A stretch of DNA of 39,141 nt from an uncultured Thermoleophilia bacterium (GTDB taxonomy: Bacteria > Actinomycetota > Thermoleophilia > Miltoncostaeales > Miltoncostaeaceae). Of this stretch, positions 29,696 through 35,790 are shown piece after piece. The position numbers and the translations under genes were made by a program. The notes beneath the pieces are model-generated. The model was not told where the DNA came from, did no database searches, and saw only the letters and a program-made list of their open reading frames with translations. The stretch spans positions 1 through 39,141 of the forward strand of contig CAMYIK010000002.1 of NCBI GenBank assembly GCA_947258365.1, written 5' to 3'. Positions within the stretch are counted from its first letter, which is position 1; each line of letters begins with the position of its first letter.

Positions 29696-31194
29696 GCGGC
29701 AAAGTCTTCCTGGTCGGAGCGGGACCGGGTGACCCGGGTCTGCTGACGCTCCGCGGGCGTGAGCTGCTCGAGGCCGCCGATGTGGTCCTTCATGACCGCC
29801 TGGGCACCGCAAACGTACTGGCCTTCTGCTCGCCGGAGGCCCTCTTGGTCAACGCCGGCAAAGCTCCCGGCGACGTCGCGATGACCCAGGATCAGATCAA
29901 TGCCGCCTTGATCGAGCACGCGACAGCGGGCCGGATGGTGGTCCGCCTGAAGGGGGGCGACCCGTTCGTCTTCGGTCGGGGAAGCGAAGAGGCCGAAGCG
30001 CTTCTGGCGGCGGCCATCCCCTACGAGGTGGTACCCGGCATCACCAGCGCCATCGCGGCACCCGCGTACGCCGGAGTCCCGGTGACTCACCGCGGCATGG
30101 CCACCGCGTTCACCGTCGTGACAGGTCACGAGGACCCCGCCAAGCCCGAGACACAGACCGACTGGCGCTCTCTCGCCAAGGGCGGTGGCACGATCGTCGT
30201 GCTCATGGGAATGGGTCGCCTCGCGCGCATCACCGCCGAGCTTCAGGCGGGAGGGCGCCCCGCCACCGAACCTGTTGCCGTCGTGCAGTGGGGCACCACT
30301 ACTCGCCAGCGCTCGCTGCATGGGACGCTCGCGACCATTTCCGACCTGGCTGAGGACTTGGGGATCGGCTCTCCCGCGGTCGTCGTCGTCGGGCCCGTCG
30401 CGGCGAAGGGCGAGAAACTCGCATGGCGCGACGGGCCGCTTCAGGGCAAGAGCGTGGTCGTGACCCGAGCACGAGCCCAGGCCAGTGATTTGTCTGCCGA
30501 GCTCAGGATTCTGGGTGCGGAGGTCATCGAGCTCCCGACCATTCGTATCGCGCCGCTGCCGCCCGGCGAGGTTCGCGCCGCTATAGGCGAGATCGACGGG
30601 TACTCGATGCTGGTGCTGACGAGCGTGAACGGTGTGGACGGCCTCTTCGCTGCACTCGACGAGCGTGGGGAGGATGCGCGAGCCATTCCCGCTTCGACCA
30701 CGATCGTCGCGATCGGACCGGCCACGGCGGCGCGCCTGCGTGAGCGTGGAGTCCGGGCCGACATCGTGCCGGAGCGATTCGTCGCAGAAGGGATCTTGGA
30801 GGCACTCGAGGCGACCGAACTCGATGGTGCTCGCGTTCTGGTTGCGCGCGCGCGCGGTTCGCGGCCGGAGCTGGTGGACGGACTCCGCGCGCGCGGCGCT
30901 GACGTCAACGAGGTCCATCTCTACGAAGCCGTGGCTGAGCCAATGCGCGCAATGGAGCTCGAGCGGGCCCTTTCGGCCGACTACCTCACCTTCACCGCAT
31001 CCAGCACCGTTCGGCACCTCATGGAACAGCTTCCGGATGAGTCGCGTGCGCGCCTTGAGTCCAAGGTGATCAGCATCGGGCCGATCACGAGTCAGACGGC
31101 CCGGGACTTCGGCCTCGAGGTCGCGCGCGAAGCCGGGGAGCACACCATCCCCGGGCTCGTCGCCGAGCTGCTGGCCGACTCCGCCACAGGGTGA
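29692..31194 (+). CDS. Fused uroporphyrinogen-III C-methyltransferase (CobA) and uroporphyrinogen-III synthase (HemD)
   Basis: Bifunctional protein of 500 aa. Residues 1-250 are the SAM-dependent methyltransferase making precorrin-2 (VFLVGAGPGDPGLLTLRG, LKGGDPFVFGRGSEE). Residues about 255-495 are uroporphyrinogen-III synthase, closing the ring (VVVTRARAQASDLSAEL, FTASSTVRHL). This fusion is well known in actinobacteria and firmicutes. It feeds both heme and siroheme, and together with the precorrin-2 dehydrogenase upstream completes the route to sirohydrochlorin. GTG start overlaps hemC; the stop overlaps the SAM hydrolase gene. Confidence 0.94.
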   Translation: MSGKVFLVGAGPGDPGLLTLRGRELLEAADVVLHDRLGTANVLAFCSPEALLVNAGKAPGDVAMTQDQINAALIEHATAGRMVVRLKGGDPFVFGRGSEEAEALLAAAIPYEVVPGITSAIAAPAYAGVPVTHRGMATAFTVVTGHEDPAKPETQTDWRSLAKGGGTIVVLMGMGRLARITAELQAGGRPATEPVAVVQWGTTTRQRSLHGTLATISDLAEDLGIGSPAVVVVGPVAAKGEKLAWRDGPLQGKSVVVTRARAQASDLSAELRILGAEVIELPTIRIAPLPPGEVRAAIGEIDGYSMLVLTSVNGVDGLFAALDERGEDARAIPASTTIVAIGPATAARLRERGVRADIVPERFVAEGILEALEATELDGARVLVARARGSRPELVDGLRARGADVNEVHLYEAVAEPMRAMELERALSADYLTFTASSTVRHLMEQLPDESRARLESKVISIGPITSQTARDFGLEVAREAGEHTIPGLVAELLADSATG

Positions 31195-32016: not shown

Positions 32017-32841
32017 TCAGGATTGAGAGCGCACCACCAGCACTGAAGAGTCCGCTCCGTGCGCGACCCGCTCGGACACGCTTCCGAGGGCCGTCGCGCC
32101 GGTAAGTCCTCGGGCGCCCACGATCAGAAGGTCCGCGAAACCCGCGGCATCGGTAAGCCCTTTGACCGGCCGCGCCTTCGTCCAGTCCACAGGCAGCGGG
32201 GCCGCCCGTCGCGTGATCTCCTCGATTCCGTTGTCATCCCCCGCGGCGCAGAGGGCGTACCCGGTCGTTGCGCCGTTTGCCCGGGCGACGATCGACTTAG
32301 CCAGATCTAGTGCGACGAACGACTCGTTCGAGCCGTCGACGCCGACCACGATGCTGGCCGGGAATCTGGTCGGCTCGAACGGGCGACGGGCGACGAGCAC
32401 CGAGCAGGGAGCCTCGTGAAGGAGCTCCGTCACCGTGCTGCTGCGCGCGATTCCCACGAGGCGTGAGTAGCCATGGTCACCCAGCGCGAGCAGTTGGGCG
32501 TTCGTATCGATGGCCGTTTGATGAAGAGCGCCCAGGCCGACGTCGTCGATGACCCGCTGGGTGATCGTGGCTGGTGCGTCGAGCTGGGCTCGCATCGCTG
32601 AGAGCGATTCGCTCGCGTACTGCGCGAGGCGTTGGTTGGCCAACGGCGGGGCGCCCAGTTCCTGAAGCTCGCCTTCGTCAACGAGAGTTCGGGCGCCCCA
32701 ACGGTTGAGAAGGGCGAAATACGGGTCGGTCGCGGCAAGCAGCATGAGCGACCCGCCCGGGTCGGTAAGACGGCTCGCTTGACGACCCGCCTCGAAGCTG
32801 GAGCGCGTCCCATCGATTCCCGCGATGACTCTGTCGAACAC
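32017..32841 (-). CDS. Tandem universal stress protein (two Usp domains)
   Basis: A 274-aa protein made of two Usp (HUP-fold) domains, each about 135 residues. Domain 1 opens FDRVIAGIDGTRSS and ends SSTVTELLHEAPCSVLVARR. Domain 2 opens SIVVGVDGSNESFVA and ends GARGLTGATALGSVSERVAHGADSSVLVV, a somewhat shortened ATP-loop pattern. I choose the GTG at 32841, with GAGGAG 8 nt upstream; a TTG at 32847 lies only 2 nt from that site. A TACCCT box at 32877-32872 may be the -10. It is unrelated in operon terms to its neighbours. Confidence 0.88.
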   Translation of the reverse strand: MFDRVIAGIDGTRSSFEAGRQASRLTDPGGSLMLLAATDPYFALLNRWGARTLVDEGELQELGAPPLANQRLAQYASESLSAMRAQLDAPATITQRVIDDVGLGALHQTAIDTNAQLLALGDHGYSRLVGIARSSTVTELLHEAPCSVLVARRPFEPTRFPASIVVGVDGSNESFVALDLAKSIVARANGATTGYALCAAGDDNGIEEITRRAAPLPVDWTKARPVKGLTDAAGFADLLIVGARGLTGATALGSVSERVAHGADSSVLVVRSQS

Positions 32842-32952
32842 CAGCAAGACTCCTCAGCTGATTTGGGAGTCCAGGGTACGACGCCCGAACAGCGGCACGC
32901 TGCGTAGGCGCCCACGTGGCGCGAGCGGGAAATCCGCAGCCGCTCGATCGAT

Positions 32953-33507
32953 CTAGCGCGAGGCGGGAGCCTCCATCAGCTCGGCAACTCGCGCCAGGCA
33001 AACCGCCTCGATGCGATCAGCCAACGCGTCATCGTTCACTGCTCCACTCAAGAGCCCTCCGCCCACCGTGAGGACCGCGGCAAGAAGCGTGGAGCCGTCG
33101 TCGACGTCGCCGCGCACGGTCGCGAGCGCGTCGATGAGCGATCGGAGCTGACCGGTGTATCCGTCCCGTCGGGCGATGTCGCCTCGAACCGCATCGACAG
33201 GGTGCGCCGCGAGAGGGCAGCCCGTTACGACATCTGCGCGCTTGGCGGGGTCGAGGTAGGCGGCTAGCGCGGCAATCGCGCTGTCACGGGGCTCTTGAGT
33301 GCCTGCCGCCGCTCGTAGCTGCTTCACCAGCCCAGCTTCGATCTGAAGGTTGTCGCGTACGAGCGCGTCCTTCGACTCGAAATGGGCATAGAACGCGCCG
33401 CGCGTAAGGCCCGCTTCTTTCATCACTTCATCGATGGACGCGCCATCGAAACCTTTCCGGCGAAAGAGCTGCCGCGCCGCCTCGGAGGCTCTGGCGCGGG
33501 CGATCCA
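32953..33507 (-). pseudogene. TetR-family regulator lacking a normal start (5'-truncated)
   Basis: TetR repressor. The helix-turn-helix is clear (AARQLFRRKGFDGASI, DEVMKEAGLTRGAFYAHFESKDALV) and the C-terminal ligand domain (TetR_C_16-like) runs to the stop at 32953. Recognisable TetR sequence begins at WIARARASEAAR (33507). Further upstream the frame continues, but it is antisense to a membrane-protein gene and has no ATG, GTG or TTG until a GTG at 33657. So the usual N-terminal 10-15 residues and start codon are missing. It may be dead, or expressed with an odd N-terminal extension from 33657 or 33837. I give only the conserved part. Confidence 0.7.
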
Positions 33508-33522
33508 CCCGACGCCTGGCTG

Positions 33523-33825
33523 ATGCCGCTCGTCGGCCTTACCGCGCTGCCGATTGCCTATCTTGTTCTGCGTGGCCGTGGCATCTGGGCCTGGACGGCC
33601 GTCGTGGCGTGGAATGTGATTGGGATCTGGGACGCGTTCTCGGCGTATCTGGTCCACGAGAGCGTCCCGTGGTCCGAGTTCTTCATGATCGAGATCTTCG
33701 GCTCGAGCATGTTCTTCGGCGCGAGCGCGGTGCACGTCGTCTGCTTGTGGCTCACGAGTCGTCCCGCTATTCGTGAGGTGTTCCTGGGCGCCGACACGCG
33801 GGGCCTGAGCGAGGTTGGCCGCTAG
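33523..33825 (+). pseudogene. 5'-truncated integral membrane protein
   Basis: From the ATG at 33523 this encodes about 100 residues with three hydrophobic, tryptophan-rich segments (LVGLTALPIAYLVLRG, WAWTAVVAWNVIGIWDAF, EIFGSSMFFGASAVHVVCLW). It looks like the C-terminal half of a small actinobacterial membrane protein; the expected N-terminal helices are replaced by antisense TetR sequence. The frame stays open back to 33382 with non-membrane residues. No Shine-Dalgarno precedes 33523. Its TAG lies in CTAG, shared with the stop of the convergent ACT gene, so its 3' end is intact. Truncation is inference. Confidence 0.55.
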
Positions 33826-34217
33826 TTCGAGGCACACAGGGACCGAAGTGCGCGAATGGCATCTTCGGTCCGATCCTCGGGTACGAGGAGGTGATCGTGG
33901 TGGGCACCCGCGATCACGTTGCAGGGAATGTTCACCTCGGCGAGGGCGGCGCTGAACGCCGCCGTCAGGCCGACCGCCTCGAGTGAGCTGTGAACCGTCA
34001 AGGTCAACCAGACCCAGCTGGCCTCGACAGCTGCTCCCGCGTCGCGCGCAGCCGAGGTCGGTACCACGAGGGTCCGGCCCTCGGTTTCCTCGACAATCGC
34101 GTGCGCCTGCGCGACCAAAGCAGCCGAGCCTCCGACCACGAAGGAAAAAGCGCCAGGGCGCTGCTCCACATCGAGTGAAGCCAGCATCACATCGGGGTCT
34201 CGCTCACCGCTCGTCAC
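33822..34217 (-). CDS. ACT domain-containing protein
   Basis: A 131-aa protein built of ACT-like (CASTOR/ACT_7) ligand-binding halves; the segment WVWLTLTVHSSLEAVGLTAAFSAALAEVNIPCNVIAGAHHDHLLVPED is characteristic but shown here only by its motifs SSLEAVG, NIPCNVIAG and HDHLLVP. Such proteins bind amino acids; role unknown. I take the GTG at 34217; an ATG at 34187 is possible. It starts 31 bp after tRNA-Phe on the same strand and may be read through from it. Confidence 0.72.
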   Translation of the reverse strand: MTSGERDPDVMLASLDVEQRPGAFSFVVGGSAALVAQAHAIVEETEGRTLVVPTSAARDAGAAVEASWVWLTLTVHSSLEAVGLTAAFSAALAEVNIPCNVIAGAHHDHLLVPEDRTEDAIRALRSLCASN

Positions 34218-34248
34218 TGGCGCCGATCGTCCAGAGTGAAGGAGCCAG

Positions 34249-34321
34249 TGGCGGGACCCGGACTCGAACCGGGGACACCACGATTTTCAGTCGTGTGCTC
34301 TACCAGCTGAGCTATCCCGCC
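34249..34321 (-). tRNA. tRNA-Phe (anticodon GAA)
   Basis: On the minus strand a 73-nt cloverleaf is complete. The acceptor is GGCGGGA/TCCCGCC, the D-arm contains AGCTCAGCTGGTAGAGC, the anticodon stem is CACGA/TCGTG around loop CTGAAAA, and the T-arm contains GGTTCGAGTCC. Loop positions 34-36 read GAA. The discriminator is A, and CCA is not encoded (ACTGG follows). Confidence 0.97.
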
Positions 34322-34334
34322 ACGCGACCTGGGA

Positions 34335-34363
34335 ACGCTAGGGGCGATTCCCGGTTGATTCAC
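34335..34363 (-). promoter_or_regulatory. Predicted tRNA-Phe promoter
   Basis: On the minus strand GTGAAT (34363-34358, sharing the TGA core of -35 elements) and TAGCGT (34340-34335, a TANNNT -10) are separated by 17 bp. TAGCGT ends 13 nt before the mature tRNA 5' end. Confidence 0.4.
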
Positions 34364-34425
34364 CTCTAGCTATCGCCGAAACCGGCGCTGAAATACTCTG
34401 GGGGAGCCCGCCACCTGGAGGAACG

Positions 34426-35790
34426 ATGCCCACGAATCGCTTCGACCTGCCCTCAGATGGGACCCCGGCCCACTGGTACAACATCGCCGCGGACCTTCCT
34501 GAGCCACCTCCGCCGCCACTGAATCCTGGCACCGGAGAGCCGATTGGTCCCGAGGCGCTCGCGCCGATCTTCCCAATGGCCCTCATCGGGCAAGAGGTCA
34601 GTGCGGAGCGGTTGATCGCGATTCCGGATCCGGTTCGCGACATCCTTGCCATGTGGCGGCCTACCCCGTTGTTCCGGGCCGAGCGGTGGGAGCAGGCGCT
34701 CGGCACCGACTGCAAGATCTTCTACAAGTACGAGGGTACGAGTCCAGCGGGTAGCCACAAGCCCAATACCGCGGTCGCGCAGGCCTACTACAACAAGGAA
34801 GAAGGCGTCGAGCGCATCGCGACCGAGACCGGCGCGGGGCAGTGGGGCTCGGCCCTTTCTTTCGCCTGCAGCCAGTTCGGGATCGAGTGCAAGGTCTACA
34901 TGGTGCGGGTCTCGTACGACTCCAAGCCCTACCGTCGCACCCTCATGGAGACCTGGGGTGGAACGTGTGTCGCCAGCCCGTCTGAGGACACCAACGCCGG
35001 CCGGGCCATCCTTGCCGCGGATCCGAACGCGACCGGCAGTCTCGGTATCGCCATCAGCGAAGCGGTTGAGGATGCGGCGACCCGCGAGGACACCAAGTAC
35101 TCATTGGGCAGCGTGTTGAACCACGTCCTGCTGCACCAAACGGTCGTCGGCCAAGAGGCCAGGGATCAAATGGAGATGGCCGACGCCTACCCCGACGTCG
35201 TCATCGGCTGCGCCGGCGGCGGCTCGAACTTCGCGGGGCTCGCCTTTCCTTTCGTCGCGGACAAGCTCTCCGGCAAGGACATGACGGTGATCGCCGCCGA
35301 GCCCGCGGCCTGCCCGACGCTCACCCGCGGCGCGTACGGCTACGACTTCGGCGATACCGCCATGACCACTCCGCTGCTACCGATGCACACCCTCGGACAC
35401 GACTTCATTCCGGCTCCGATTCACTCCGGGGGCCTGCGATACCACGGTATGGCGCCGCTGGTCTCCCATCTGGTCCACACCGGCGTCGTCGAGGCCCGGG
35501 CCTATCACCAGACCGAGTGCTTTGCGGAGGCCGTGCGATTCGCCCGCAGCGAGGGCATCGTTCCGGCGCCGGAGCCGACACACGCGCTACGCGCCGTGGT
35601 CGAACAGGTCGAGCAGGCGCGCGCGGAGGGCGTCAGCAAGACCATTCTTTTCAACCTCTGCGGCCACGGGAACTTCGACATGGCCTCGTACGAGGACTAC
35701 CTCTCGGGCCGTATGACCGACTACGAACTGCCCCAGGCCGAGATCGACGAGGCCTCGGAGGCGCTCGCCGGGTTGCCCACCGTCGGCTAA
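34426..35790 (+). CDS. trpB: TrpB2-type tryptophan synthase beta-like enzyme
   Basis: PLP enzyme of fold type II, 454 aa, matching the longer TrpB2 class. The PLP lysine is K112 (GSHKPNTA), the [11 protein letters not shown] substrate loop follows, and the phosphate-cup GGGSN motif ([10 protein letters not shown]) is present. TrpB2 proteins condense indole with serine (or O-phosphoserine in some archaea) and often lack a trpA neighbour, as here. GGAGGAA precedes the ATG by a good distance and TACTCT (34394-34399) may be the -10. Its TAA overlaps the acuC stop. Confidence 0.93.

Follow-up and report, generated by a model that had tools for sequence, protein, structure and literature searches.

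The window, as we call the whole 39,141-nt stretch of DNA analyzed here, is the entire contig C2 of a 2.76 Mb draft genome, and it contains two frames that meet head to head, one of which, encoding a TetR-family regulator, lacks its 5' end. Our preferred explanation, held with some reserve, is that this DNA was gained as a small patch and that a deletion within it fused two head-to-head genes at their 5' ends. An accessory patch of 1.4 kb (encoding the TetR regulator, a small membrane protein, and an ACT-domain protein) would have settled next to a universal stress protein (USP) gene, with the 3' side of a tRNA-Phe gene at its other edge. A deletion inside the patch would then have joined the 5' portions of the two genes. 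TetR would have lost about 11-17 codons, comprising its start and N-terminal arm; the promoter region between the genes would have gone too, and the membrane gene probably lost its own start and first segment. Left over would be a TetR remnant without a usable start and a membrane-protein remnant without a promoter of its own, both probably non-functional. Taken as a whole, the locus gives the impression of a deletion causing ordinary gene decay in an accessory patch, with no new device. The features concerned are as follows:

32017-32847, minus strand: USP gene, left neighbor of the patch (Pfam Usp, E 2e-22)
32848-34247, no strand assigned: 1.4 kb patch without counterpart in the same-genus genome; edges within 32848-32952 and 34218-34247
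32953-33507, minus strand: TetR-family regulator remnant; helix-turn-helix (HTH) and C-terminal part kept, start codon and N-terminal arm missing
33483-33510, no strand assigned: likely interval of the head-to-head junction (TetR agreement from 33483-33498; membrane frame open throughout)
33502-33825, plus strand: small hydrophobic protein frame, probably 5'-truncated; coding-like codon-position GC
33822-34217, minus strand: ACT-domain protein gene, intact (Pfam ACT_7, E 9e-13; ACT_3, E 2.5e-8)
34248-34321, minus strand: tRNA-Phe (gaa), called by ARAGORN; 3' end towards the patch

The 5' end of the TetR frame

The minus-strand frame belongs to the TetR family by its HTH: Pfam TetR_N (PF00440) matched at E 3e-15 over profile positions 3-45 of 47, starting at 33483 and spanning residues 119-161 of a 294-codon ORF. 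A complete N-terminus with a start codon was absent. The ORF is counted from 33837, and a stop at 34206 forms its upstream boundary; start-type codons (ATG, GTG, or TTG) upstream of 33507 were limited to the GTGs at 33657, 33735, and 33837. The nearest, 33657, is 50 codons away, which agrees with the original prediction that no start lies within 50 codons. An upstream run of 49 codons with neither start nor stop was found at 11-12% of sampled positions, all frames, in this DNA; such a stretch is not rare, and the argument for truncation therefore rests on relatives. A tblastn search of the genome collection returned at least 386 of these, of which the best 80 (30-43% identical in the best segment) were used. 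In all 80, counting upstream from the residue equivalent to 33507, a start-type codon came after 6-11 codons, these starts being chosen mechanically; 19 of the same best 80 (of at least 386) carry another, nearer start-type codon.

The relatives also share an N-terminal arm. Among 64 distinct N-termini, R occurred at position -6 in 52, Y at -5 in 54, H at -1 in 47, K at 0 in 57, T at 3 in 52, and R at 4 in 55. In none of the three minus frames did window residues -7 to 0 agree with this arm better than chance, and the TetR frame scored -13.2, compared with -5.9 for the lowest-scoring family member. Agreement with the 64 N-termini begins at about residues 4-9, or roughly 33483-33498, slightly downstream of the proposed 33507. 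A frameshift in place of truncation was considered by seeking the arm in the three minus frames and was rejected, as 51%, 28%, and 97% of window 8-mers scored equally high. Some of the highest-ranked of the best 80 (such as L044, L047, and L048) themselves deviate from the common arm, so its absence is only a modest sign of truncation and weighs less than the missing start codon. Comparison with relatives supports the loss of the TetR 5' end, comprising the start and about 11-17 codons.

Third-position GC of the TetR frame (0.74) was the lowest of 12 genes, yet near the 0.76-0.84 of the others. Of the 42 genomes of the order, 17 had a match to it, at no more than 46% identity over a short stretch outside its own genome. 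The frame also contains a perfect 13-nt inverted repeat (33045-33057 and 33289-33301, with 231 nt between the arms), which may be due to chance.

Divergent neighbors and the patch beside tRNA-Phe

A deletion across a divergent intergenic region would bring two start-less frames together head to head, as they are here: the frames meet within about 33483-33510, with no intergenic region carrying an operator and promoters between them. No sigma-70-like promoter was found in 32800-34450, a weak sign given that 0.2 were expected from shuffles. By a crude ORF rule, the best 80 TetR relatives (of at least 386) comprised 44 with a divergent neighbor, 34 with a co-directional one, one with none, and one too short to score. 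Within the 44 divergent loci, the smallest gap was 21 bp, and eight of the neighbors had at least two hydrophobic segments. PMC3511530 reports that 250 of 372 Streptomyces TetR regulators are divergent from a neighbor, 198 of the 250 within 200 bp, with a range of 0 to 1123 bp; such zero-length gaps count against our reading.

That the TetR and membrane genes were once a regulator and its target, as originally proposed, is plausible. An intact version of the pair was not found in the genomes, plasmids, and viral contigs searched. Nor did the searched genomes yield relatives with the same short arrangement and conserved starts. Because no intact pair was found, the deletion is not told apart from the joining of two unrelated gene fragments, never a regulator-target pair, when the patch formed or inserted beside tRNA-Phe. 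Both the TetR and membrane genes are lacking in the same-genus stretch and sporadic in the order, and no membrane-frame relative lay in the best 80 TetR loci (of at least 386) at E up to 1, as would suit such a joining. We nevertheless consider it somewhat unlikely, since the head-to-head geometry is what deletion of a divergent intergenic region is expected to leave and TetR genes are mostly divergent from a neighbor, both among these relatives and in PMC3511530. On the predicted deletion of both 5' ends and a shared promoter, we can thus say that TetR 5' loss is supported and that the layout fits, while the original arrangement is one that we infer.

The same-genus comparison drew on one genome, G001, which is 67% complete. 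Its contig C28 (locus L126), read in window orientation, carries the USP gene (71% identical and there also adjoining tRNA-Phe), about 130 bp, tRNA-Phe, a TrpB-like gene (92% identical), and HDAC. The neighbors are conserved in the same order, and this USP/tRNA-Phe stretch is without TetR, membrane frame, or ACT gene; the syntenic comparison called for in the original prediction supplied no intact parent pair. The short intergenic DNA of G001 gave no convincing alignment to either patch edge. Beyond USP, the SAM hydrolase gene of G001 is split over the USP contig and a second contig carrying hemD and hemC, and the USP-SAM hydrolase interval contains an extra 2.1 kb, compared with 43 bp in the window, so the neighborhood is not frozen; the interval (L126:3332-5282) holds what we take to be an oxidoreductase-like gene and a pentapeptide-like gene. 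Gene content around tRNA-Phe also varies among genera: presumably a glycosyltransferase-like gene occupies the 3' side of the tRNA in L128, L137, L138, and L139, and in these four loci, as in L134 and L135, the tRNA and TrpB are separated by what appear to be a response regulator and a histidine kinase; in this genus, USP or the patch adjoins the tRNA. Gain in this species is the simplest account of the patch; loss in G001 is possible, the comparison being with a single genome of 67% completeness.

Relatives of the ACT gene were found in four of 199 class genomes at E 1e-8, its own included, and the surrounding DNA examined at the three outside its own genome held no TetR or membrane relative. 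Plasmids gave near full-length tblastn matches to the ACT gene (46 of 54 records covered at least 80%); viral contigs gave none. No integrase was found in the patch, where only the TetR and ACT frames matched a Pfam family, and the longest exact word that the patch shared with the tRNA region was 9 nt; the integrase and att duplication of a tRNA-integrated mobile island were thus not found. Elsewhere in the window, ARAGORN called a 93-nt tRNA-Arg on the minus strand at 29939-30031, inside the hemD frame; we regard it as probably false because hemD of L133 likewise contains a tRNA-Ala call.

The contig itself might have dropped both 5' ends and the intergenic DNA through a local collapse at the junction, and the draft is indeed fragmented (337 contigs, 87% complete). 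We judge such an artefact unlikely. The genes flanking the patch are also neighbors in the same-genus genome, and this conservation on both sides argues against a gross chimeric contig; no long repeat was found at the junction, only a 17-nt direct repeat pair of 82% identity at 33300 and 33517. Contig C65 matched the junction over 59 bp at 80%, gapped and within GC-rich DNA, which was taken as chance.

The small membrane-protein frame

On the plus strand, the original prediction had placed membrane-protein homology starting close to the same point. The frame at 33502-33825 is coding-like, with GC of 0.61, 0.49, and 0.83 at the three codon positions; the homology was not reproduced in Pfam, NCBIfam, or the genomes searched, and an in-frame ATG at 33523, which would give 100 residues, had gone unmentioned. 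No Pfam family above the cut-off and no NCBIfam family matched. Within the order, the only genome of 42 with a match was its own. Across the phylum, three of 396 genomes matched at E 0.001, its own included, without a convincing relative; on translation we take the other two to be one longer transporter-like frame. Searches of the genomes of 24 of the best 80 TetR relatives gave matches in 10 at E up to 1; of the 17 matches in these 10 genomes, 15 were translated at or near the match and none was convincing. The phylum of G427 yielded matches in 10 of 398 genomes at E up to 0.01, all examined and none convincing, seven of them sharing what is presumably one stretch like a TRAP small subunit. 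Plasmids had no match at 1e-3 and three weak ones at E up to 10, and viral contigs had no match.

In the class, 28 of 399 genomes matched at E up to 0.05, its own included. When 19 of the 27 other matches were examined, eight at the matched place and 11 by alignment near it, only L162 merited follow-up; several others looked like pieces of larger transporters. A profile built from the membrane frame and L162, run at E up to 0.01 on 399 class genomes, found eight: its own, G735 (L162 itself), strong matches in G647 and G775, and four weak matches that were not convincing on examination. The strong scores derive mainly from the L162 row of the profile, the direct comparison being weak. The one lead was the small membrane-protein family L190-L192, which gave a weak match, both with hhalign (probability 79%, 47 columns, 36% identity) and in a single-sequence search (E 0.0025). 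In L191, an extra hydrophobic segment lies upstream of the part aligned to the membrane frame, which would fit a lost first segment in the latter. This family spans three genera of one family, with L191 75% and L192 64% identical to L190, and the one member searched had no Pfam match.

Truncation of the membrane gene is likely. From the ATG at 33523 the frame could be complete, a point that counts against our reading, and TetR alone would then be broken; or neither gene might be broken, if TetR uses an unusual start or if sequencing introduced a one-base frameshift close to its 5' end. The absence of a Shine-Dalgarno-like (SD-like) motif at this ATG says little, since by a simple rule six of nine other genes here lack one. 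A single-sequence structure model of low confidence (mean pLDDT 67.6, pTM 0.43), however, begins the first helix (residues 6-27) at 33505, six residues before the ATG. The family's N-terminal arm is also missing from the other two minus frames, which argues against an intact TetR restored by a frameshift, and intact genes would be left with nearly no intergenic DNA for promoters. We therefore hold completeness of one or both genes to be quite unlikely. Against the deletion that we favor, neither frame is visibly decayed, so the event was recent or the frames are still used. At the other end of the membrane frame, its stop codon and that of the ACT gene overlap tail to tail at 33822-33825.

Frames across the junction and comparison with known systems

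The original prediction had raised the possibility of a new chimeric frame from 33657 or 33837. Being codon-registered antisense to the membrane frame, the TetR frame stays open across the membrane gene; such an antisense frame was fully open in three of 12 genes tested (hemD, 501 of 501 codons; NFU, 100 of 100; the membrane frame, 108 of 108) and partly open in others (e.g. TrpB, 215 of 455; SAM hydrolase, 71 of 261). An ordinary open frame on the antisense strand accounts for the supposed chimera, and no special explanation is needed. A functional chimeric TetR protein starting at the GTG at 33657 or 33837 is thus highly improbable, although the frame is open and runs to 294 codons from 33837. 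Equally improbable is a working, ultra-compact divergent pair in which each promoter would lie inside the coding sequence of the other gene and TetR would be translated from a non-standard start.

If the frames proved to be expressed, the locus would show a deletion giving rise to a new regulatory unit; as it stands, it adds to the examples of gene decay in patches that are lineage-specific and adjoin a tRNA gene. It also calls for caution in annotation, as the 294-codon TetR and 147-codon membrane frames reported by an ORF finder cross the junction and probably do not represent real full-length proteins.

As in TetR/tetA-type divergent systems (PMC3511530), a TetR-type HTH gene here faces another gene head to head. 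The locus differs from them in lacking the start, the N-terminal arm, and all of the intergenic operator region. Bacterial pseudogenes can arise by deletion across a divergent promoter, and the two 5'-truncated frames placed head to head resemble such cases; here, by contrast, the intact parent pair was not found, and the deletion is one that we infer. Genomic islands and small accessory patches are known to insert at tRNA genes. Although this patch differs from tRNA-adjacent islands in having no integrase and no exact tRNA-region repeat longer than 9 nt, it is like tRNA-adjacent patches in that extra genes stand beside the 3' side of tRNA-Phe and are missing from the other genome of the genus.
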